A DNA stretch of 64,000 bases, taken from positions 496,001 through 560,000 of the forward strand of contig JABUFD010000002.1 of the NCBI GenBank assembly GCA_013314735.1, in the 5' to 3' direction. The stretch is from Anaerolineae bacterium (GTDB lineage: Bacteria; Chloroflexota; Anaerolineae; Anaerolineales; Anaerolineaceae). The stretch's first letter is position 1; each line of letters opens with the position of its first letter. Positions 5,122 to 58,521 of the stretch are shown piece by piece. The position numbers and the translations under genes are program-made. The notes beneath the pieces are model-generated. The model was given only the letters and a program-made list of their open reading frames with translations, made no database searches and had not been told where the DNA came from.

Positions 5122-6123
5122 TTAACCTTCTATTGGCGGCAGGTAGGAACGCAGCAGGACAGCATCCGCCGACGCGTGAATCCGGTAGGTTCCCATTGCG
5201 GCCGGGAGCAGGACAAACGTGATGGGTTGTAAGGATTCCCCATTTACGGTTGCTGCCCCTTTCAGGCAACCCCAGATTTCCAATGTGCTGCCATCACAAT
5301 TTCCGTTGAACTCTCCGCCTTCAGTCATGTGGACACGGTCTGTGATAAAGTATTGATTTTCACACAGGCGGTATTGCTGAACAAGGCCATCATCAGACAA
5401 CAAGGATGCAGGAACGACCTTCGGTTCTGGATGGTCAAAATCGATCACATCCATGGCTTGCCGGATATGGAGTGGGCGTGGTTGTCCATCGGTGCCCACG
5501 CGATTCCAATCATACACACGATACGTTGTGTCAGAATTTTGCTGAATCTCCGCGATTATTTCTCCCTCCATGATGGCGTGCAGCGTGCCTGACGGTACAC
5601 AGACATGGTCACCAGCTTGTATTGGGACAAAATGGAGAAAGGGTTCCAAATGACCGGTTTCGATCGCCTTTTGGAAAGCTTCCGGTGTTGTACCTTTTTT
5701 TACGCCATAAATTAATTGTGCACCGGGCTTTGCTTTGAGGACAACCCACATTTCGGTCTTTCCCAGTTCATTGCCCTCATGTTTTTGCGCATAGGCATCC
5801 TTGGGGTGAACCTGCACTGACAGACGATCATTGGCATCGATTAGCTTAACCAGAAGTGGGAATTTCCCACGTTGCAGTGCCCAGTCACCCCAATGTCCAA
5901 CCAGGTTGGCTCCCATCTCATGGGTGAGTTGTGCCAATGTTTTTCCCTGGTGGATGCCATTAATCACGGTGCAGTCTCCATTAGGGTGAGCAGCGATTTC
6001 CCAGCTTTCAGATGTTTTGCGGTCCATGGGTATGTTCCGGCCGAAATCTGCCAGGTTATGGCCGCCCCAAATGGCTTCTTTCAGCACAGGTGATAATCGC
6101 AGAGGATAGTAAAAATGATTCAT
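5122..6123 (-). CDS. manA: mannose-6-phosphate isomerase, class I
   Basis: Interconverts fructose-6-phosphate and mannose-6-phosphate, supplying mannose for surface glycans. The cupin metal site shows in VQVHPKDAYAQKHEGNELGKTE, with the usual Gln, His and Glu ligands, and in DHVCVPSGTLHAI, with the later His ligand. The N-terminus PLRLSPVLKEAIWGG is typical of the short bacterial (Bacillus-type) enzymes, and the length of 333 residues agrees. The start at 6123 is preceded by GGAGAG; a longer frame reaching 6174 has no ribosome-binding site. It is transcribed towards the FAD-oxidase gene and diverges from the acetyltransferase at 6226. Confidence 0.9.
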   Translation of the reverse strand: MNHFYYPLRLSPVLKEAIWGGHNLADFGRNIPMDRKTSESWEIAAHPNGDCTVINGIHQGKTLAQLTHEMGANLVGHWGDWALQRGKFPLLVKLIDANDRLSVQVHPKDAYAQKHEGNELGKTEMWVVLKAKPGAQLIYGVKKGTTPEAFQKAIETGHLEPFLHFVPIQAGDHVCVPSGTLHAIMEGEIIAEIQQNSDTTYRVYDWNRVGTDGQPRPLHIRQAMDVIDFDHPEPKVVPASLLSDDGLVQQYRLCENQYFITDRVHMTEGGEFNGNCDGSTLEIWGCLKGAATVNGESLQPITFVLLPAAMGTYRIHASADAVLLRSYLPPIEG

Positions 6124-34839: not shown

Positions 34840-36654
34840 TCAGGGGAGGAAAATGGTGCCGTGTTGTGAAAGCATTCCCTTGATCGAGGTAATGGTTGTG
34901 TTCAGATCTTCATCATCATCCACCTGGTAATCTGGCCGCAGGTTGGTAGTCACTTCATCACCGCTCCAGATGACCTCGACACGATCAGACCCAACACTGG
35001 ACCTGACGATATTCAAATCATCCTGATCCATTTCACGCGCTGTCACAATTAAAAGCAGGCCAGCATCGAGGAAAATATGGGCGATTTCCGCCAGGCGGCG
35101 CATGTGTTCTTGCGGTTTGTCTGTTGGCTCAAAAATTTTCAGATCCGCGTCAACGCCGTAGATGACTGAGCCGATCGCAAGATAATACACAAACTTGCCC
35201 GATTGGAACAAGTTCATTTCCAAACTGTGCGCAATCTCTTTACGGCGGCTCTCTTTGGTGCCTGTAATGATAATCAATGTCGCTCGCTGGTTGTACCGTT
35301 CTGATCGCTGATAGGTGGATATCGCACTATCAATCCACTTGCGTTCACGCACAAATAGCGCTTCGCGCATTTTCATTTCTTCATCCGGCAGCGATGCCAG
35401 AACAATCCCGCCGCCCCGGATTTCATAATCATCCACAATCACAAACCGGCTTGTGTCTGACAAGGTTTCAGACAGATCAAACGCAATGGGGTTGTGTAGC
35501 TTCAGGATGCACTGGGCGACGTCATGGTGTTCAACACGGTCTTTTTCTGCGGTGGAGTAATCAGAAGCATCAATGATTTTCTCAATTTTCTCGATCTGGC
35601 AGCGAACCCTGGCACTGCCCAGTTTCAGGAAATAATCCTTTCCGCTTTCCATTGGCTTTTCACCCAGCCAGACCAGGCTGACCAGGATGCGTTTACTGAC
35701 TGCTGGTGCAGATTCATCCGCCTTACAGGCAATTTCACCACGGCTGATATAAATTTGTTTTTCCAGGGTAAACCCCGATGCATACCCACTTGATATGTGA
35801 TCTGGAGCAGCAACTGCGAACGCTTCGAAGGTTCTCACCACACTGCGTTTCCCTGATGGATAAAAGATCACTTCATCACCGACTGAGAGGGTTCCGCTGG
35901 ACACAGAACCGGCCACAATCCGGCGCTCATCGCCGAATTGTGTAAATTTGTAAACATCCTGAACAGGCATGCGGAAGGGGCGATTGACCGGAAGCTCGGT
36001 TTTTTTAAAACTATCGAGTGCTTCCAGGACGGTTTCCCCACTGTACCATGCAGTATTGCCGGAAAGAGACGCGACATTTGCTCCATCTTTTCCGCTGACG
36101 GGAATGTAGAACATGGGTTTCACACCTAACTCATCTAAAAAGTGGGTATACTCCGTTTTGACCTGATCAAATATGCCCTGGCTATACCCGACAAGATCCA
36201 TTTTATTGATGAGAATAACAATCTGGCGAATCCCCAGCATCCACAACAGGTAGCCATGACGGCGCGAATTTTCCTGTACTCCCTCCTTGGCATCGATCAC
36301 CAGCACTGCAGCCTCTGCACGGGATGCACCGGTAACCATGTTTTTGATGAACTCGATATGGCCAGGCGCATCAATGATGATGTAGTGGCGTTTGCGTGAC
36401 TGGAAAAACACCCGTGCTGCATCGATCGTGATGCTTTGTTTTTGCTCCTCTTTCAGTGCATCAATCAGGTAGGCATACTCAAACGGTTGGTTTTCGCGCT
36501 CACACCGCAAGCGCACTTGTTCCATTTTCCCTTCCGGCAGAGACCTGGTGTCATGCAGCAAGCGGCCAACTACTGTACTTTTCCCATGGTCTACATGACC
36601 GACAAAGACTATATTCATCTGTTCCATTAATTGTGGGTCTACATTGGCTGCCAT
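34840..36654 (-). CDS. cysN: sulfate adenylyltransferase subunit 1 (CysN) with degenerate C-terminal kinase-like domain
   Basis: GTPase subunit that drives APS formation from sulfate and ATP with CysD. The GTPase motifs are [34 protein letters not shown] and NKMD, followed by EF-Tu-like beta-barrel domains, to about residue 430. The last 150 residues ([20 protein letters not shown] onwards, with [20 protein letters not shown]) occupy the place of the APS kinase in CysNC fusions. The P-loop there is eroded: GTKESRRKE has no GxxGxGK[ST]. A separate intact cysC lies two genes upstream. ATG 36654 is chosen because longer starts overlap cysD. Confidence 0.85.
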
Positions 36655-36655
36655 T

Positions 36656-37537
36656 TTACATGTATCCTTCCCGACGCAGTGATTCCAAACCACCGCCATC
36701 TTCCTTATCCTGGGCGCGCCCGGCACGTTCAGACACATTCGAGAATTTGCCTGTTTTTAACTCAGCAATGATTTCTGCTACATTTCGGGCTTCCGATTTC
36801 ACTGGGTGTGTACATGGATAACATCCCAGTGAACGGTAACGCATACCGTTTCCCTGGTTGTAATAAAGGGAGACGGTGGGAATATTCTCCCGTTCGATGT
36901 ATTCCCAAATATTGACCTCTGTCCAATCGAGCAGTGGATGGATACGAACATTGGTTCCAGGGGCGAAGTCAGTTTTGTACTGGTTCCAAAACTCTGGTGG
37001 CTGTTCGGCAATGTGCCACTCGTTCTGTCGGTCACGTGGTGAAAAGTAACGTTCTTTTGAGCGCGAGCCTTCTTCATCCGCCCGGGCTCCGACGATGACA
37101 CCCGTAAATGGCTCCGGATTTTCTTCAGGCTCGTACCGATCGGTATTGTGGTTAAATCGATAACGGGTTCCTTTGGCTGTGAGGACATTGGTTAAGGCCT
37201 GGGTCTTCAATAGTGAACAACAGGTGATGCGGTCTACAGCGCCATCCGGGAAAGTCCGTTTGGCGGATAGGGCTTCTTCATTGGAACCAACCACCATGTT
37301 CAATTTCCACTCCCGCACCAACCGATCCCGGTATTCAATCATTTCGGGTATCTTGAAATGCGTGTCAATGTGTACTAGCGGGAAAGGCACATGCCCATAG
37401 AACGCTTTTCGGGCAAGCCATAACAGCACTGTGCTATCTTTGCCCATTGACCACAGCATCCCCAGGTTTTTGAAGTTGGCATACGCTTCACGGAAGATGA
37501 AAACAGATATGCTCTCCAATTCTTCAAGTCTATCCAT
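36656..37537 (-). CDS. cysD: sulfate adenylyltransferase subunit 2 (CysD)
   Basis: ATP-pyrophosphatase-fold catalytic subunit of ATP sulfurylase, making APS from sulfate and ATP. The PP-loop appears in [20 protein letters not shown], and [20 protein letters not shown] and GRTCCS-type equivalent [14 protein letters not shown] are typical of CysD. The segment [10 protein letters not shown] and [20 protein letters not shown] complete the signature. 293 residues is close to E. coli CysD. It overlaps cysC by eight bases and abuts cysN. Confidence 0.93.
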
Positions 37538-38159
37538 CAATTTCTTTCGTATCCTTTCTTGCGCGTAACTGGTGAACCGTCAGATACTTAATGACCTCCT
37601 CAGCACATTCATCTGCTGAAAGTAAACCAGAATATAGAGTGAGTTCAGGATTCACTGGAATTTCATAGTCAGAACCGATTCCCGTGAAGTTTTGAATCTG
37701 TCCGTTTCGGGCTTTTTCGTATAGACCCTTTGGGTCCCGGGATTCGCATACATCGAGAGGGCATTGCACAAAAACCTCAATAAAATCTCCCTCAGGAATG
37801 CGCTCCCTGATCCGATTGCGGTCTGCTGCATAAGGGCTGATAAAAGCCGTTAAAACGATCAGCCCGGCATCGTAGAACAAGCGGCAAACCTCACCGAGTC
37901 TGCGGATATTTTCAGCTCGATCTCGGGGAGTAAAACCAAGGTCTTTGTTTAATCCCGTGCGGATATTATCTCCGTCCAACAAGAAGGTGTGAGCGTGGAA
38001 ATCGCGGCAAAGGCGAGCCTCAACCAGGTTAGCGATTGTAGATTTCCCGCTACCTGACAGGCCAGTAAACCAGACCACTGCGGGTCGATGCCCTTTTAAA
38101 TGGATTCGTTCCAATGGCGAAACAGTCTGGTGATGGGGGATGATATTATCCTGGGTCAT
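37530..38159 (-). CDS. cysC: adenylylsulfate kinase
   Basis: Phosphorylates APS to PAPS. The P-loop [18 protein letters not shown] is intact, followed by [19 protein letters not shown] (APS site), [16 protein letters not shown] and [15 protein letters not shown]. 209 residues. GAGGTAG lies just before the ATG. In the absence of PAPS reductase or sulfite reductase genes nearby, the cysCDN set next to sugar genes suggests that PAPS is made for sulfation of a surface glycan; assimilation elsewhere cannot be excluded. Confidence 0.93.
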
Positions 38160-38220
38160 GCTACCTCGATCGTCTTCCGATTTTAGGCCAGAAATGCCTG
38201 GCTATGGCGGCTTGATTATA

Positions 38221-39276
38221 TCAAAGTCTACCATTCTGGTAGATTTGATGAATCAAACGCAAAGCTTTCATCGCGTCGGAAGAAGATCCGGTGGTCAGGG
38301 GCACATCGCGCAGGATGGCATTTGCAAAATCTATGAACTCCAGTTTCCATGAGTCATCGACGCCAAAATAGATGGTTTCTTCACGCGGTTTTCCAAAGGA
38401 TAACGCTTCGTCCTCGAACTGGCGCCGCGCATAAGTCAGTGTCTCATCGCCATAACTACGGGTGGAGGACAGTATCCCATTCAGGTTAATGTATCCATTT
38501 TCCAATCCAATTTCCAACGAAAAGGTGTGCTTCCATTGGGTGGCTGATGAATGCAGCAGTGCCACCTGGTTGTTCTTGTTGTGCAATATGGCAAAGGCAT
38601 TATCTTCAACGGGCACATTCCAAAATGACGTTGTTGTGAGGCTGCGTACTGTATCGAATTCTCCACAAAAATATAGGAAAAGGTCCACCATATGAATCCC
38701 CTGGTCAATCAGAATGCCGCCGCCCGATTTTTCCACTTCATTTCGCCATGAGTTGGGAAAACTGAGGCCGCCCGCTTTGCCATATACACCACGCATCCAC
38801 AGGATTCTGCCGAATTGGCCGGAATCAATGGTTTGTTTGGCTTCCATGATCGAATAATGTTTTCTATGGTTAAATCCATACATCAGGCATAAATCGGGAT
38901 GGTCCTGCTCAATATCGATCACGCTCTGCATCTCTTCCAGCGTACGCGCAGGCGGTTTTTCACAAAAGACATGTTTTCCAGCCTGGAGTGCTTTTCGGAC
39001 AACGTCAGGGGCGACATCGTTGAAGGAACACACCACGACAGCATCCAGTGCGGGATCGGTCACCAGATCGTTATAATCACTGTAATAATGTGGTTCAGGA
39101 AATTGCGAAATGATCGTTTTATCCAGGTCACAAATTGCAATGACTTGCATTTCGGGGTTTTTTTGAGCTTCGGCGTAACGGATACGACCCATTTTCCCCA
39201 TTCCAACAATACCCAACCGCAGTGGAAGGGCAGTCGGTTTTTTCCGGGAATGTTTGGACCGCACAACGTAATCCAT
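38221..39276 (-). CDS. Gfo/Idh/MocA-family oxidoreductase
   Basis: An NAD(P)-dependent sugar oxidoreductase of 351 residues. The Rossmann motif is LGIVGMGKMGRIRYAEAQ, the catalytic loop is GKHVFCEKPPARTLEEMQ (EKP), and the C-terminal domain includes GGGILIDQGIHMVDLFLYF with the conserved His. The substrate is probably a nucleotide sugar or a free sugar phosphate in this locus. I chose ATG 39276, just after the stop of the SIS isomerase gene; the frame extends upstream but only inside that gene. Confidence 0.85.
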   Translation of the reverse strand: MDYVVRSKHSRKKPTALPLRLGIVGMGKMGRIRYAEAQKNPEMQVIAICDLDKTIISQFPEPHYYSDYNDLVTDPALDAVVVCSFNDVAPDVVRKALQAGKHVFCEKPPARTLEEMQSVIDIEQDHPDLCLMYGFNHRKHYSIMEAKQTIDSGQFGRILWMRGVYGKAGGLSFPNSWRNEVEKSGGGILIDQGIHMVDLFLYFCGEFDTVRSLTTTSFWNVPVEDNAFAILHNKNNQVALLHSSATQWKHTFSLEIGLENGYINLNGILSSTRSYGDETLTYARRQFEDEALSFGKPREETIYFGVDDSWKLEFIDFANAILRDVPLTTGSSSDAMKALRLIHQIYQNGRL

Positions 39277-39278
39277 GA

Positions 39279-39899
39279 TCAATGGGTCAATTTGCCGATA
39301 CGCGACAAACGCAAGTAAGTATAGATCAAGTGATCCAATACCTGAAAGATATCTTCCACAGGACCATACTCGCCATCTGGCGTGGCGACATGGAATGCAA
39401 TATCCGCCAGGGTGGCAATCTTCCCGCCCGAAAAACCGGTGCAAGAAATGATCACAGCACCGTGTTCCCGGGCATATTCGACCGCTTTGACAATGTTCGG
39501 GCTATTCCCACTGACAGAAAGGGCGACGAGGACATCGCCCGGATGCAGCAGGTATTCCAATTGCCGCACAAATATGTTTTCGTACCCCTCATCGTTTGCC
39601 ACGCAAGTCAGAACAGCCTGGTTATCCACAAGGGACATGGTTCGAATGGGCGGCAGGCCATCCATCCGTGTATTTAGCGACATATCACTGGCAAAGTGTG
39701 AGGCTGTAACAGCACTGCCGCCATTTCCGATAAAAAAAATCATATTGCCGGTTTGCGCGGCTTGCTCAAATTGATGGATGATTTTTTCGATGACTGAAGG
39801 GGTTAGGCCCGTCAGCATATCAATCAAATAACGCAAGTAGCCTTCAGCAAATTCACTGGCAGTATGCGAATCTTGGTACATTTGGGTTAGATTTTTCAT
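39279..39899 (-). CDS. SIS-domain phosphosugar isomerase, GmhA-like
   Basis: A 206-residue sugar isomerase domain protein. FFIGNGGSAVTASHFASDMS, LVALSVSGNSPNIVKAVEYA and DGEYGPVEDIFQVLDHLIYT are characteristic of sedoheptulose-7-phosphate isomerases (GmhA) and DiaA relatives. GmhA makes D-glycero-manno-heptose-7-phosphate for heptose in surface polysaccharides. No heptose kinase or adenylyltransferase is nearby, so the exact substrate is uncertain. It overlaps the methyltransferase-like gene (ATGA). Confidence 0.82.
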   Translation of the reverse strand: MKNLTQMYQDSHTASEFAEGYLRYLIDMLTGLTPSVIEKIIHQFEQAAQTGNMIFFIGNGGSAVTASHFASDMSLNTRMDGLPPIRTMSLVDNQAVLTCVANDEGYENIFVRQLEYLLHPGDVLVALSVSGNSPNIVKAVEYAREHGAVIISCTGFSGGKIATLADIAFHVATPDGEYGPVEDIFQVLDHLIYTYLRLSRIGKLTH

Positions 39900-40897
39900 C
39901 TGGATAATTCCTTTTTGCTTCCAACTGCCCGTAGGTGTGAGGAGAGTAAATTGGTCTGCAGGAAATTCTGAAGATTTTCATGGGCATATCCATCCCGCTT
40001 TTCGAGGAAGTAAGCAATGGATGGTGGAATGGGGTGGTTGTTGTGGTTCTTCATGTATGTATTCACCACCTGAACATCAAGCTGGCCTGGTGTACTGATT
40101 TCTTCAATCGTATAACCGGCATTCGTCATCAAGGCTGTGATACCTTCAACCGATAGGAGGTTGATATGTTCCAATGGCAGCAAGGTGGGAGTGTATTCGC
40201 GCAACACCTGGATATCAAAACCACTGCCGGCTCGCGTTGTGATTATCAGCATTCCACCTTGTGCAAGCTTTTTGAACGTTTGATGGACAAAAGCGACCGG
40301 TGATACCTGGTGTTCCAGGATATCGAACGCACTGAGCACATTGATGGATCCATCGGCGACATCATCAAGCCGATGAACAGTTTTTTGTGTTAAGGGTGTG
40401 ATAAAGCGCGGAGATACCATCAACGCATCGATAGGCTCTTTTTTTCCAAGGGAGTCTACCAGTGCGGAACCCAGCGGTTCAATATCCACAAGGCTTATGC
40501 GTTGTTCCGCCATACGCATTAACAAAGAGGTGATCCACATCGTGCGGTAAACAGCCAATTTCGTCAGGCGGGATTGCATCACCTGCTGGTATTCCTCACT
40601 GGCCCTTAATTGCGCGGCAGGTGACTTATGTGTGTACCAATGAACTTGTTTTGGTGTTGGGCGGGGATTCATGAAAATTGATTTGCATGAATTGCATTCG
40701 TAATATGGAAAATCGTCAATGCTAAAGGCGGGGTGAATTGTGTCATCCTCGCAGGCCGGGCACTGGGTGATGAACGTGAACTCCTGACGATTCAAGGCAT
40801 GGGCTGATTGATACGATGCAGACCGAAACTCCTGGTAGATTTGCGGCGGGTGAACTTCGAGTTCGTTGATCGATTCATTGAAAATTACCTGGCGCAT
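39896..40897 (-). CDS. methyltransferase-fold protein with zinc-ribbon N-terminus and eroded SAM motif
   Basis: A 333-residue protein. Residues 46-70 hold a CPAC ... CNSC zinc ribbon (CPACEDDTIHPAFSI; YYECNSCKSIFMNPRP), as in sugar C-methyltransferase relatives such as those of the TylCIII/NovU type. The class I SAM motif that should read LDIGCGxG is RISLVDIEPLGSALVDSL: the glycine loop is missing. Later motifs (INVLSAFDILEHQVSP, GGMLIITTRAGSGFDI) are present. It may bind sugar without methylating, or use a divergent SAM site. AGAGGTAAT precedes ATG 40897. Confidence 0.72.
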   Translation of the reverse strand: MRQVIFNESINELEVHPPQIYQEFRSASYQSAHALNRQEFTFITQCPACEDDTIHPAFSIDDFPYYECNSCKSIFMNPRPTPKQVHWYTHKSPAAQLRASEEYQQVMQSRLTKLAVYRTMWITSLLMRMAEQRISLVDIEPLGSALVDSLGKKEPIDALMVSPRFITPLTQKTVHRLDDVADGSINVLSAFDILEHQVSPVAFVHQTFKKLAQGGMLIITTRAGSGFDIQVLREYTPTLLPLEHINLLSVEGITALMTNAGYTIEEISTPGQLDVQVVNTYMKNHNNHPIPPSIAYFLEKRDGYAHENLQNFLQTNLLSSHLRAVGSKKELSR

Positions 40898-40978
40898 ATT
40901 ACCTCTGTTTATGAGGGACACTCTTCCCCAATTCAGGGCTGAACTCCATATCCCATTAATGGGATTATATCACAGCCA

Positions 40979-42103
40979 TCATTCGGCAGGTTTGTGAAAA
41001 GCAAAGTTAGCTTTATTCCTCACGATGGTTCCAGGAGGAACATGGGTCGTCAGGATAACACCGGATGCGATCACCACATGGTCGCCAATTGTTAATCTCG
41101 GTTCTATTGAAATTCCTGTGCCAAATCGTACATGGCTGCCGATATGAACCCCGCCAGACATTGCGACGTTGGGACCAAAAGTGCAATGATCTCCCATGAC
41201 GTTGTGGTGTTCGATGTTGACATAAGCCGATAAAAAATTGTTATCGCCAATCTGGCTTTCTGGCCCTATGCGGCAATGGGCCATGATCATGTTCCCGTTT
41301 CCCATCATGGAGTTTATCCCGATGACTGCAGTGGGATCGATAATGTTTGCGAAAGGGATTCCCTGGCGCGAAAAGCGTTCAAATAATTCAGCACGGGCAG
41401 GAAGCGCACCGACAGCCAATGCGGCCAAGTCAAATGCGCCGGCTTTCCATAGGCCCGGAACTTCCTGAAGGTTCCCCAAAATCGGGCAACCACACACATT
41501 GGTTCCTGATAAACCTGGATTGTCATCGACAATCCCCATCGCAGTTTGATTCGGTACACGAGCCAGTATGTCGAGGACGAGAACAGCTATATTCCCTCCT
41601 CCGATAATTAGAATGCGTTGGGATTTGTTAACATTCTTGCTGACCGGGTGATTCTCTTTCACAGGTTCAGTGTGCGCAAGGTAGGTTAGGATGTCCTGTT
41701 CTGTTATTCTCTCCTCCTTTCCGAAATATTGGGCCATGTCCTCCATGCTTAATTTGTTTTTATTGGCAAGTATCTCAGCTTTTTTGGTCCAGTTTGTGCG
41801 TGGCTCCACAACGGTTTTCTGATTCGGTTCATTCGATATGGCCTCCGGCAGGGTGTAGGACTCCCCCGGTGATGTGGTCAACACTGCGATGATTTGGCCT
41901 GTTTCTACCTGTGCCCCTGCGGGTGTGAGGGGAACCAGATAACCCCCAAATTCTGTTGTCAAGTCGAAGGTGGACTTGGTTGTTTCCAACACACAGAGCA
42001 GTTCACCTTTGTTTACAAGTTCCCCCTCTGCTTTTCGCCATTCGATTAGGGTTGCCGTATCTTCGTTCACATTTATCATCGGGGCATAGATGAATTGGCT
42101 CAT
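40979..42103 (-). CDS. lipoyl-domain / E1-E3-binding-domain / PglD-type N-acyltransferase fusion
   Basis: A 374-residue three-part protein. Residues 1-80 are a lipoyl (biotinyl-like) domain with the acceptor lysine at about residue 43 in LETTKSTFDL. Residues 105-142 (AEILANKNKLSMEDMAQYFG, then KEERITEQDILTYLA) resemble the peripheral-subunit-binding domain that holds E1 or E3 in 2-oxoacid dehydrogenase complexes. Residues 163-374 are a PglD/NeuD-like sugar N-acyltransferase: Rossmann-like start ILIIGGGNIAVLVLDIL, then left-handed beta-helix hexapeptides with the catalytic-type histidine pair in NIEHHNVMGDHC. No E2 catalytic domain (HxxxDG) is present. The gene overlaps E1 beta by ATGA. I infer that acyl-lipoate made by E1 feeds acylation of an amino sugar. 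Confidence 0.85.
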   Translation of the reverse strand: MSQFIYAPMINVNEDTATLIEWRKAEGELVNKGELLCVLETTKSTFDLTTEFGGYLVPLTPAGAQVETGQIIAVLTTSPGESYTLPEAISNEPNQKTVVEPRTNWTKKAEILANKNKLSMEDMAQYFGKEERITEQDILTYLAHTEPVKENHPVSKNVNKSQRILIIGGGNIAVLVLDILARVPNQTAMGIVDDNPGLSGTNVCGCPILGNLQEVPGLWKAGAFDLAALAVGALPARAELFERFSRQGIPFANIIDPTAVIGINSMMGNGNMIMAHCRIGPESQIGDNNFLSAYVNIEHHNVMGDHCTFGPNVAMSGGVHIGSHVRFGTGISIEPRLTIGDHVVIASGVILTTHVPPGTIVRNKANFAFHKPAE

Positions 42104-43104
42104 AACAATACCTCATAAACGACTTGCTCGATTTTCGCGACCGAAGGAAGATAGGCATCTTCCAGTGGTTTTGCTGCGGGGACGATTGTTCCTGCAGCGC
42201 CTATTCGGCGGACTGGAGATCGTAGATTGTCCCACAGGTGGAGGTGCACACTTGCGGCAATCTCTGCTCCCCATCCCCATTGGCCAGTGCCTTCTTCCAG
42301 GATAATCAGCCTGCCGCTTTCCCGGACTGCATCCAGGACAGGTTCCATATCCAGCGGTTTTATTCGGGAAGGCAACAACGCAAGAACACGGATTTCCTCA
42401 TGTCGCATGCGCTTGAGGATCTCGTGAACCCATAATGAACTCCCCCCATAAGCGATGAGTGTCACATCAGGTATCTGCCACTGTGGATAGTTGCGCAACC
42501 GGATAACAGGGCAGTGATCCTGTGAAGAGAGGGACACAATTTCCAGATCATTGTCTGTTTGAACCAACGGGCGGGTGTAAAGCAGTTTGTGCTCAAGGAA
42601 TAATACCGGATTGTGAATGTTAGAGGCGATATCGAACAAGACCTGTCCGGGATCATGGAAGTGTGATGGCGCGACCAGATCCAGGTGGGGGATGCCAAGG
42701 AACATTTTCTCCAAAGACTGGCTGTGTGTGGGTCCATAACCACGACCTGCACCAACCGCGAGCCGCACGATGATGCTGCCTGGTTGTTCCTTCTGATACA
42801 TAGCAGAGAATTTGGCTGCATAGTTCACAATCTGGTCTGCTGCCAGGGTAATGAAATCACCAAACATAATTTCCACGATTGGCTTCAGTCCACGCAAGGC
42901 CATTCCATTGGCGATACCCATGATGCCTGCTTCGCTGATCGGGGTTGTGATCACCCGGTTGGGGAAATGGGTTGACAATCCCTTTGTTACTTTGAATGCA
43001 CCACCATACGGGTCAAGGATGTCTTCGCCGAGGATGTATACGGCAGGCTCTTGTTCCATCAGCCGGTGAAGGTTGCTTTGAAGAGATTGAAGGTAGGTCA
43101 CCAT
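42100..43104 (-). CDS. 2-oxoacid dehydrogenase E1 beta subunit
   Basis: A 334-residue transketolase-like subunit pairing with the alpha subunit just upstream. YILGEDILDPYGGAFKVTKG, TTPISEAGIMGIANGMALRG, GPTHSQSLEKMFLGIPHLDL and LIILEEGTGQWGWGAEIAAS are typical of pyruvate, branched-chain or acetoin dehydrogenase E1 beta. It overlaps E1 alpha by seven bases and the lipoyl-acyltransferase gene by four, so all three should be made together. Its real 2-oxoacid cannot be told from sequence. Confidence 0.9.
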   Translation of the reverse strand: MVTYLQSLQSNLHRLMEQEPAVYILGEDILDPYGGAFKVTKGLSTHFPNRVITTPISEAGIMGIANGMALRGLKPIVEIMFGDFITLAADQIVNYAAKFSAMYQKEQPGSIIVRLAVGAGRGYGPTHSQSLEKMFLGIPHLDLVAPSHFHDPGQVLFDIASNIHNPVLFLEHKLLYTRPLVQTDNDLEIVSLSSQDHCPVIRLRNYPQWQIPDVTLIAYGGSSLWVHEILKRMRHEEIRVLALLPSRIKPLDMEPVLDAVRESGRLIILEEGTGQWGWGAEIAASVHLHLWDNLRSPVRRIGAAGTIVPAAKPLEDAYLPSVAKIEQVVYEVLL

Positions 43105-44051
43105 TGTTCAGCTCCCCGGATGAAGTTTTCGGCTGAAAGGAATGGAGCCTGTTGCGCAGTCTGCACTGCTGTTTGGACGCGGCGGCGGCAATCCTGTTCC
43201 AGTATCGAAAGGCGTTTACTGTTGATCTGTTCCAATGACCAACGCAAATGGAGCAGGGGATCAATCTGGCGATGGATTTGAATCTCCGTGGGGTCACGGA
43301 AATCATCGCCTTTTGAATGGGGCGCAAAACGATAAGTATGCAATGCGAGAAATGCCGGGCGGTTGTGGCTGCGGATATAGGAAACTGCATCGTGTGCTGC
43401 TTTGAGTACTGTCGTTACCTGGTCGGCTTTGATGACCTGCGTTTTTATATTGAATACCTCCGGCCTCTTCTCAACACTTCCAGCATGCTCCAGGATGGTA
43501 GGCGTACTCTGGGCGTACTGGTTATGTTCCAGAACGAAAAGTATGGGAAGGTTCCATAAAGAGGCCATGTTGAGGGTTTCATAAATCACACCCTCTCCCA
43601 TAGCACCATCGCCGAGAAAGGTGACTGTGATCGCATTTGTTTTACGCGCTTTTTCGGCGAGGGCAGAACCGGCGGCACAGGCTGTCGTTCCCCCCAGTAC
43701 GCCGTTTGTGTAAAAATTTTTCCGATGCAAGTGCTGAGATCCACCAACACCCCGGCACACACCGGTTTCTTTCCCCATGACCTCGGCGATCAGGCCTTCC
43801 ACATCATCGCAGTACGCCAGATAATGTCCATGGCCGCGATGGTTGGACCAGATCACATCAATGTTGCGGTCGAGGGCATTGATCACGCCGACCGCACAAG
43901 CTTCCTGGCCGATACAGGTGTGTACAGTGCCAAACAACACGCCCTGGGAAAAGAGATCCAGCAAGGTTTCTTCCGTATGCCGGATGGTATACATCTGGCG
44001 GTATAACTCCCATTCGTTAACCAATTCGGTTTCATTTCCACTAGGCGACAT
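43098..44051 (-). CDS. 2-oxoacid dehydrogenase E1 alpha subunit (TPP-dependent)
   Basis: A 317-residue TPP enzyme subunit that decarboxylates a 2-oxoacid and passes the acyl group to lipoate. The TPP motif is FLGDGAMGEGVIYETLNMAS followed by LWNLPILFVLEHNQYA. CIGQEACAVGVINAL, SNHRGHGHYLAY, and GVCRGVGGSQHLHRKNFYTN match acetoin/pyruvate E1 alpha proteins. ATG 44051 follows AAAGGA; an earlier TTG has no ribosome-binding site. It is the first gene of a leftward nine-gene run that continues to cysN. Confidence 0.9.
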   Translation of the reverse strand: MSPSGNETELVNEWELYRQMYTIRHTEETLLDLFSQGVLFGTVHTCIGQEACAVGVINALDRNIDVIWSNHRGHGHYLAYCDDVEGLIAEVMGKETGVCRGVGGSQHLHRKNFYTNGVLGGTTACAAGSALAEKARKTNAITVTFLGDGAMGEGVIYETLNMASLWNLPILFVLEHNQYAQSTPTILEHAGSVEKRPEVFNIKTQVIKADQVTTVLKAAHDAVSYIRSHNRPAFLALHTYRFAPHSKGDDFRDPTEIQIHRQIDPLLHLRWSLEQINSKRLSILEQDCRRRVQTAVQTAQQAPFLSAENFIRGAEQW

Positions 44052-44077
44052 TGCTACAGTCCTTTTCAATAGGGTGG

Positions 44078-53206: not shown

Positions 53207-54711
<1,505 letters not shown>

Positions 54712-54728
54712 CTAAGGTGAAGAGGAAA

Positions 54729-54757
54729 CGTTTGCTGTCAGTATTGAGTTGTTGAGG
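54729..54757 (+). other. 3' arm of the 16S rRNA processing stem
   Basis: Complementary to 53083-53111 (see that entry), in the spacer between 16S and tRNA-Ile. Confidence 0.7.
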
Positions 54758-54788
54758 GGAAGGTGGAACTTCCCGGACACAGGAGAGA

Positions 54789-54862
<74 letters not shown>

Positions 54863-54875
54863 TGTGTAGAGGAAC

Positions 54876-54948
54876 GGGGATGTAGCTCAGCTGGGAGAGC
54901 ATCGCCTTTGCAAGGCGGGGGCCAGGGGTTCGAGTCCCCTCATCTCCA
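54876..54948 (+). tRNA. tRNA-Ala (anticodon TGC)
   Basis: 73 bases: acceptor GGGGATG/CATCTCC, D arm AGCTCAGCTGGGAGAGC, anticodon loop TTTGCAA (TGC), T arm GGGGTTCGAGTCCCC. The full CCA is not encoded. It pairs with tRNA-Ile as in most rrn spacers. Confidence 0.95.
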
Positions 54949-55140
54949 CAAGAAGTGGTTGGGTGGTGAATGCGGGTGATGGGAAGCCATCACAGGCATT
55001 GACGGCCTGGCGACAGGACGAAGACTCGGGGACGAGTCAACCCGGGAACGGGCGCACATTAACAACAGAATAGAAATTGCGAATAGGTTGATATCTAAAC
55101 AATAGAGTCAAGAAGAGTTCAAACCGAGAGAAAGAGAACA

Positions 55141-55156
55141 GAGTTCTCTACATTAC
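55141..55156 (+). other. 5' arm of the 23S rRNA processing stem
   Basis: GAGTTCTCTACATTAC (55141-55156) pairs with GTAGTGTAGAGAACCC (58105-58120), closing the 23S RNA into a processing stem. Confidence 0.65.
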
Positions 55157-55157
55157 G

Positions 55158-58103
<2,946 letters not shown>

Positions 58104-58208
58104 AGTAGTGTAGAGAACCCTGGTCTTTTTCAACCGAATGAACAAGAAAAACCGAATTCGTAATAAATTCTATTCTGGAACGTGACAACGTCAATAAGAG
58201 AGAAAGGT

Positions 58209-58324
58209 ATTGGTGATTGGAGCGGCAGTGGTACACCTGGTTACATTCCGAACCCAGTCGTTAAGGCTGCCAGCGCCGATGGTACTTGGGGGGCGGCCCC
58301 CCGGGAGAGTAGGTCATTGCCAAT
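58209..58324 (+). rRNA. rrf: 5S ribosomal RNA
   Basis: About 116 bases, with 5' ATTGG pairing to 3' CCAAT and the typical core CCGAACCCAGTCGTTAAG followed by GGGAGAGTAGGTC. Ends are approximate. A T-rich stretch follows directly and may end transcription. Confidence 0.92.
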
Positions 58325-58521
58325 CCCTTTTCTCTCTTTTTTTGTTAATTCTCTACTGTGCTGTAGCACACGCTCTGCCCTCATCCCCGCGGATGGGCGG
58401 CAGTTTTTGCGTTTAACCCCCTCGATTAACGGCTCGCTTGCTCATGCCATCCGGGATGGGGCAGTCAGGGAGGCTTGGATATGATTCCTGTGCCGCCCTC
58501 CGTCCAGGTCTTCAAGGGGTG
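58325..58521. other. region between the rRNA operon and the Mg-transport leader
   Basis: Holds a T-rich stretch after 5S (58331-58343), then bases with no gene I can support. GC content rises from about 58380 onwards. Confidence 0.5.

Follow-up and report, generated by a model that had tools for sequence, protein, structure and literature searches.

We analysed a 64,000-nt window of the genome of an Anaerolineae bacterium (Chloroflexota, family Anaerolineaceae; assembly GCA_013314735.1, contig JABUFD010000002.1, positions 496,001 to 560,000); the window is that whole stretch of DNA. On its minus strand lies a three-gene module encoding the two subunits of a thiamine diphosphate (TPP)-dependent E1 enzyme and a fusion of a lipoyl domain with a PglD/NeuD-type sugar acyltransferase. 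Gene adjacency, joint loss and decay of the lipoyl arm in relatives strongly support the conclusion, already proposed in a sequence-only reading of the window, that E1, the arm and the PglD domain function as a single unit. The best, though unproven, account is that the module delivers an acyl group on a lipoyl arm and that a sugar acyltransferase stands where the E2 core would otherwise be. From sequence comparison, we give a probability of roughly 0.6 to a mechanism in which the dedicated E1 charges the arm and the PglD domain passes the acyl group to a sugar amine without release of acyl-coenzyme A (acyl-CoA). In the mechanism as first proposed, the weakest part is the origin of the acyl group from a 2-oxoacid.

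The three genes overlap, as the sequence-only reading had described, an arrangement confirmed by open reading frames and by Pfam, NCBIfam, PDB and AlphaFold/Foldseek comparisons. E1 alpha (43098..44069, minus) matches PF00676 (E1_dh, 5e-54) and shares 7 bases with E1 beta (42100..43104, minus, ATG start), which matches PF02779 (Transket_pyr, 4.7e-29) and PF02780 (Transketolase_C, 6.1e-19). E1 beta in turn overlaps by 4 bases with the fusion (40979..42103, minus, ATG start). The fusion length of 374 residues given earlier is correct; the end at 44051 given for E1 alpha is an in-frame ATG lying six codons inside a frame that opens with TTG and reaches 44069, and this ATG is the probable start. 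The genome holds a single copy of the full-length fusion and also encodes LipA, which scores over its cutoff. One E3 gene over the cutoff (563 bits) lies away from the module locus, and there are two full-length matches to classical E2, one of them read through a stop, each near an E1 match.

Within the fusion, the lipoyl domain (residues 5-75; 41879..42091, minus, coordinates checked by translation) matches PF00364 (Biotin_lipoyl, 5.8e-10). Its predicted lipoyl-lysine is Lys43 in ETTKS (41975..41977, minus, codon checked), and the earlier placement of a lysine near residue 43 holds: the residue is Lys in 41/41 aligned fusions and at 80/80 loci of a profile scan of genome contigs. The AlphaFold model predicts the lipoyl barrel confidently (block pLDDT, a per-residue confidence score, 91-98 over residues 1-80) and places Lys43 in the hairpin turn joining strands 35-40 and 45-49. 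The C-terminal half comprises a PglD N-terminal domain (residues 163-243; 41375..41617, minus; PF17836, PglD_N, 8.7e-6) and a left-handed beta-helix hexapeptide region (approximately residues 254-361; 41021..41344, minus; PF00132, Hexapep, 3.5e-16, 5 stretches). The PglD_N fold is predicted with confidence; the hexapeptide coil is poorly modelled (pLDDT 58-69 over residues 281-360). Searching with the fusion model, Foldseek retrieved PerB (9.5e-9), VioB (4e-7), PglD (1.1e-6) and lipoyl domains (from 6.7e-5). By alignment to PerB H141, His299 (41207..41209, minus) is the equivalent of the residue that we take to be the catalytic base of PglD-type acetyltransferases, and it is kept in 40/41 aligned fusions. 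If the histidine pair named earlier was H299-H300, only its first member is conserved, position 300 being Asp in 36/41 aligned fusions.

Between the lipoyl and PglD domains lies a peripheral-subunit-binding-like segment (approximately residues 103-145; 41669..41797, minus). Pfam returns no match for it, yet it is helical in the models (helices 107-115, 120-127 and 135-145; pLDDT 77-92 at residues 101-140 and 62 at 141-150), carries a strong motif in canonical relatives (RITxPALxLA...LVTE) and is covered by a hidden Markov model (HMM) built from the family. Neither the E2 catalytic family (PF00198) nor the E3-binding family of Pfam matches the fusion at E<=0.1, in agreement with the earlier statement that no E2 catalytic domain is present.

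The module recurs across Anaerolineales. As the sequence-only reading had suggested, we searched for the three-domain architecture and its E1 neighbours across genomes, and among the matches listed from 200 relatives found a fusion of nearly full length, at 24-30% identity, in no fewer than 49 genomes; the broader tally of this search, 189/201, counts any match, including lipoyl-only or PglD-only ones. The only same-genus genome found (L033) encodes a fusion 57% identical to that of the window. E1 alpha and/or E1 beta lies near the fusion in 39/40 fetched neighbourhoods, the exception being L067. The contig scan, which covered the best 80 of 176 relatives, yielded 80 further loci, partly from the same genomes; these 80 relatives carry names at the level of Chloroflexi, Anaerolineae or lower, including two 'Candidatus Aquidulcis' (Chloroflexota, class Limnocylindria) and one 'Brevefilum'. 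In a sample of 350 genomes of the same phylum, the profile hits 58 at 1e-20; the hit is close to full length in 7, namely five of the order (the window's own genome included) and two of a family, f76, with a separate type of fusion. A plasmid search with a canonical fusion matched 76 records, none covering more than 80% of the query in one place. At four canonical loci (L034-L036 and L069), E1 alpha and E1 beta form a single chain of approximately 670-700 residues, that of L035 being cut at a contig end. One genome with the module (G043, 99% complete) encodes LipA and, in our search, showed no full-length classical E2, with partial matches confined to one 282-residue frame; the fusion may belong to a small set of lipoylated proteins in that genome.

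Joint decay of the arm and E1 provides a natural experiment. We gathered stand-alone acyltransferase orthologues and tabulated 148 distinct PglD-domain sequences after merging identical PglD cores. A threshold of 235 bits, set by us, defines a canonical clade of 138, which includes L033 and excludes the f76 and ordinary NeuD-like proteins; the window fusion is not in this table. Setting aside six loci at contig edges (L122 and L149, armed; L235, a remnant; L176, L242 and L244, armless), E1 lies within 6 kb at 92 of the clade's armed loci and is missing at 1; of its armless loci, 39 lack E1 and 0 have it. Of 92 armed rows, 50 come from the 80-locus contig scan and the remainder from other genomes. 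The Fisher value for this association (8e-33) ignores relatedness, and we therefore do not use it as a probability, turning to nested losses instead. The E1 beta frame lies at most 200 bp from the fusion frame in 86/92 armed loci with E1, and the family-built HMM of the subunit-binding segment matches 92/92 armed proteins and 1/39 armless orthologues.

Armless proteins are nested within the armed clade at no fewer than three places, both by FastTree (the window and 147/148 rows, L237 being left out as too short) and by IQ-TREE (76 sequences). The IQ-TREE placements are a large armless clade (95.9/99), L245 among genus g9 (90.7/94) and L236 among g11 (99.1/100). Three remnants (L179, L183 and L241) retain a lipoyl-like domain that has lost its Lys, and no E1 lies nearby. 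At L236 the subunit-binding segment is kept while the lipoyl domain and E1 beta are gone, and what is left of E1 alpha (5601-5927, minus) is a stump in two pieces, one aligning with residues 1-32 and the other with residues 255-300 of E1 alpha from L137. Provided that the draft assembly is correct, this stump is the deletion scar of a module, although it is a single case in which an assembly fault is possible. Because these nested losses include both Lys-less remnants and an E1 alpha deletion scar, we conclude that the arm and E1 decay together. Whole genomes were compared as well: in 38/38 armless genomes (counting G019, whose locus is one of the contig-edge cases), the best E1 alpha scores at most 198.7 bits to the canonical query, compared with 257.7-660.3 bits in six armed genomes and 202.6 and 210.5 bits in the two f76 genomes. 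In a tree, the E1 alphas of nine armless genomes all fall outside the module clade.

The mechanism that we propose would run as follows. The alpha-beta E1 would form an acyl unit on TPP and reductively acylate the predicted lipoyl group on Lys43, with the subunit-binding-like helices keeping E1 (or E3) close. The arm would then carry the thioester to the PglD/NeuD-type site, where H299 would activate a sugar amine to give an N-acyl sugar with no acyl-CoA released, and a general E3 encoded elsewhere would reoxidise the dihydrolipoyl group. The genes and domains, the invariance of Lys43 and of the E1 catalytic motifs, and the shared inheritance and loss of arm and E1 are observed; that the arm is lipoylated, that an amine receives the acyl group and which acyl group this is are inferences. 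Direct transfer to the sugar amine, bypassing CoA, would fit the missing E2 domain together with the DegT aminotransferase and Bac_transf initiating transferase genes that neighbour many relatives. Several findings weigh against this account. One concerns the coupling itself: the armed locus L067 (genome G125) has no E1 nearby, and the best E1 alpha of that genome, which is fragmented, scores only 142 bits.

The PglD domain could instead be an ordinary acetyl-CoA-dependent N-acetyltransferase, with the fusion serving as a scaffold and the arm serving E1 elsewhere, for instance in loading CoA or some other carrier. Orthologues that lack the arm occupy the same chromosomal slot, showing that the PglD domain can be retained once the arm is gone, and the separate f76 fusion retains a CoA-type GVPAK end. 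This arrangement seems unlikely, as the fusion has no E2 catalytic domain, loci that lose the arm lose E1 too, and arm loss comes with changes in the acyltransferase (F263 to L, I279 to L/V, T282 to A/N/V and L315 to Q), whereas the catalytic His (His288 in canonical numbering) is kept in 91/91 armed and 39/39 armless canonical-clade orthologues. Absence of the CoA-type end from the armed clade also counts against it, though armless relatives are no different in this respect. The window fusion lacks the C-terminal GxPA[KR] end, which is presumably linked to CoA. This end is found in 0/92 armed and 0/39 armless members of the canonical clade and in 6/10 lower-scoring NeuD-like or f76 rows. We considered its loss as proof that the lipoyl arm is the only donor and rejected this argument because armless orthologues also lack the motif.

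The sequence-only reading had called the E1 pair a 2-oxoacid decarboxylase, a label that now looks doubtful: the pair groups with E1s of biosynthetic clusters that resemble QncN/QncL and not with the E1s tested that resemble those of pyruvate dehydrogenase (PDH) or branched-chain 2-oxoacid dehydrogenase (BCDH). We built one tree for E1 alpha and one for E1 beta, each from 65 rows, some of the E1 alpha rows being duplicates and the roots being midpoint or arbitrary. The 31 module E1s in these trees group with RenH from a renieramycin plasmid, an E1 from a Streptomyces nonribosomal peptide synthetase (NRPS) cluster (L276) and an unannotated Nonomuraea E1 (L277), with support of 0.985 (alpha) and 0.943 (beta). 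Outside the module clade fall the 28 other E1 rows of the same phylum, which are PDH/BCDH-like, and a Thermus AcoA. Module and biosynthetic-cluster E1s share residues that set them apart from the PDH/BCDH-like group (T51, Q112, G158 and Y163 in alpha; P125 and G137 in beta). The arm shows a similar affinity: in a lipoyl tree of 37 rows, some of them duplicates, 26 fusion arms (that of the window included) join the lipoyl domains of the RenI, L276 and L277 loci with support of 86.9/96. Support within the module/reference E1 clade is weak; in the E1 alpha tree the window joins the three references at 0.827, and the references join each other at only 0.174.

One article (PMC6335953) states that formation and attachment of a C2-glycolicacyl unit has been shown for QncN/QncL/QncM, and describes SclQ1-4 as their homologues, with a sclQ1-4 deletion strain retaining residual product. 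A like C2 unit is described for NapB/NapD of naphthyridinomycin in two others (PMC7570522, PMC5384830). By the ancestry of E1 and arm, a ketose-phosphate-derived glycolyl group is a serious candidate for the acyl unit and would be no less likely than an acetyl group derived from pyruvate; the reference loci behind this comparison number three, of which one lacks annotation. The same arm route could also be fed by an ordinary 2-oxoacid decarboxylase, in which case pyruvate or a branched 2-oxoacid would supply acetyl or a branched acyl group and, with pyruvate, the product would be the usual N-acetyl sugar. This version, toward which the best NCBIfam and PDB matches of the E1s (pyruvate or branched-chain dehydrogenase entries) and the acetyl transfer of known PglD/PerB enzymes (by PDB titles) both point, is a real possibility that we do not favour, given that both E1 subunits cluster with the E1s of biosynthetic gene clusters, at a distance from the 28 other E1 alpha rows, and have in common with the former the distinguishing residues named above.

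Catalytic residues of E1 bear on a further alternative. His251 of E1 alpha, which by motif corresponds to H271-alpha, is present in all 31 aligned module E1s, as are the motif equivalents of E59, F85 and H128 in E1 beta (31/31). The roles of these four residues in a lipoate-charging E1 are described in PMC2663715, and their equivalence here is by motif. TPP enzymes of the E1 fold can act as carboligases. The E1 could accordingly be imagined to add a two-carbon unit to a keto sugar, giving a branched-chain sugar, with the lipoyl domain left as a docking relic. The invariance of the lipoyl Lys (80/80) and of the lipoate-acylation residue (31/31), and the loss of that Lys where E1 is gone, make this highly improbable.

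The closest known counterparts of the module are the two-component transketolase-lipoyl systems of NRPS clusters (QncN/QncL, NapB/NapD and SclQ1-4), which pair the same kind of split E1 with a lipoyl domain; for QncN/QncL-like systems the C2 glycolyl unit is reported to originate from ketose phosphate. Our comparison used RenH/RenI, L276 and L277 as stand-ins for NapB, QncN and SclQ; L276 comprises an acyl carrier protein (ACP), E1 alpha, E1 beta and a lipoyl/2-oxoacid_dh protein, the set given for SclQ1-4 in PMC6335953, and RenI is likewise a lipoyl/2-oxoacid_dh protein. In those systems an E2-type domain hands the C2 unit to the ACP, whereas in the module a sugar acyltransferase replaces that domain. 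A motif scan found no ACP at the module, but the same scan missed the annotated ACP of L276. With the PglD, NeuD, PerB and VioB N-acetyltransferases the fusion has in common the fold, the PglD_N domain and the catalytic His. These solved relatives, CoA enzymes by their PDB titles, align only from about residue 160, and the fusion differs from them in its added N-terminal lipoyl arm and its missing GxPA[KR] end. PDH and BCDH complexes share the E1 alpha-beta pair, lipoyl domain and subunit-binding-like helices with the module; the fusion, however, has no E2 catalytic domain, the E1 stands outside the PDH/BCDH-like group in our trees and E3 is encoded elsewhere in the genome. Finally, in the pepteridine pathway, a PDH-like unit is proposed to acylate a free amine through Plu2796, a PDH E2-like protein fused to T and C domains; as described in PMC5384830, that pathway differs in using a carrier protein and an NRPS condensation domain and in its acceptor, a tetrahydropterin. 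Among the open-licence papers listed by our literature searches, none was seen to describe a lipoyl-armed sugar acyltransferase.

Known acyl acceptors of lipoyl arms include CoA and, within NRPS clusters, a carrier protein. If the proposed mechanism is correct, an arm-fed sugar N-acyltransferase would add a new class of acceptor to lipoyl chemistry and would link central metabolites to the surface glycans of widespread, mostly uncultured Chloroflexota. It would also predict N-glycolyl or other unusual N-acyl sugars, which are open to search, and a system of three proteins is small enough for in vitro assay.

Genes for sugar-nucleotide metabolism lie near the module in many loci, namely those for a DegT aminotransferase (PseC/LegC-like in the representative, below curated cutoffs), a Bac_transf initiating transferase and an NAD epimerase. 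At a limit of 6 kb, DegT accompanies 41 of the 92 armed loci, Bac_transf 40, the epimerase 20 and at least one of them 70; no background rate was computed for these counts, a further point on the negative side. DegT lies within 100 bp of the module at 21 of these loci. Where 6 kb is available on both sides (55 armed loci), at least one of the three sugar genes is present at 49. In family f1 the chromosomal slot reads epimerase, 3-methyladenine glycosylase, E1 alpha, E1 beta, fusion, bactofilin, protease, ProS and DegT, and the same slot is also seen with an armless PglD in place of the module, which argues that genes for the acceptor are retained whether or not the cassette for the donor is present. 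A nucleotide 4-amino sugar of the bacillosamine or perosamine type is the probable acceptor in canonical relatives.

The acceptor of the window copy is uncertain. The sequence-only reading had named the amino group of a nucleotide sugar as acceptor, with uridine diphosphate (UDP)-amino sugars as assay substrates; for this copy such an acceptor is not evident, because no DegT stands beside the module (the nearest is approximately 60 kb off) and the GGHGK of the PglD N-domain in relatives is replaced. The copy is also divergent. It forms a separate branch with its same-genus counterpart L033, the two being 25 and 29% identical to the canonical L064, and its identity to canonical members overall is approximately 24-30%. 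In the IQ-TREE analysis its PglD domain falls outside the canonical clade, with NeuD-like proteins (83.5/88), a position behind which a long-branch effect is possible. Profile searches accept part of the earlier assignment: Pfam recognises both the lipoyl and PglD_N domains, but the NCBIfam NeuD model (TIGR03570) gives the window fusion 150.8 bits, under the cutoff of 160.8 that L064 exceeds with 185.7.

The window copy may act on something other than a UDP-4-amino sugar, such as a hydroxyl, a heptose or another amine supplied by the enzymes encoded downstream. These genes (36656..40921, minus; named by Pfam families) encode a methyltransferase, a SIS isomerase, a Gfo/Idh/MocA dehydrogenase, APS kinase and CysD, which is followed by CysN (34840-36738, minus). 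Their order is kept in L033, at 46-86% identity, and any link between them and the module is a guess. The distance to DegT, the loss of GGHGK and the position of the PglD domain, along with this order kept in one same-genus genome, speak for such an acceptor. The conservation of H299 and the arm, and the fact that NeuD remains the best NCBIfam match, speak against it, and we regard such a different acceptor as possible but less likely than not. The genes for APS kinase, CysD and CysN (34840-38159, minus) share a gene run with the module, and L033 keeps their order, which hints at sulfation alongside the module pathway.

Family f76 (G349 and G487) carries a separate lipoyl-PglD fusion, with an E2-like arm whose lysine lies in ETDK and with the CoA-type GVPAK end. 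In G349, E1 alpha, E1 beta and DegT come next after the fusion (locus L253, G349:C2, 3648-7885, minus); in G487 the E1 alpha-beta genes are on a different contig from the fusion. The f76 lipoyl domain and E1 alpha fall outside the module clades, and its E1 beta lies at their base. (The trees label these loci 'remnant' automatically, though the Lys of ETDK is intact.) The f76 form may represent a second, independent origin of this design or a very ancient variant of it, in which CoA might be used. A broader proposal is that E1 and the lipoyl arm constitute a portable cassette, akin to the glycolyl loaders of NRPS clusters, that was grafted onto sugar acyltransferases; a C2 unit from a ketose phosphate would then travel on lipoate directly to a sugar amine, making an N-glycolyl sugar without CoA or a carrier protein. 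Such a cassette would have been assembled more than once: in canonical Anaerolineales, perhaps in the window with another NeuD-type domain, and in f76 with a PDH-like E1 alpha and arm. We offer this only tentatively and would not be surprised to see it fail. At L253, the genes after DegT resemble, by eye, Wzz, an O-antigen ligase and a glycosyltransferase. In the window, a complete rRNA operon (16S, tRNA-Ile, tRNA-Ala, 23S and 5S; 53207-58325, plus) lies approximately 9 kb from the module.

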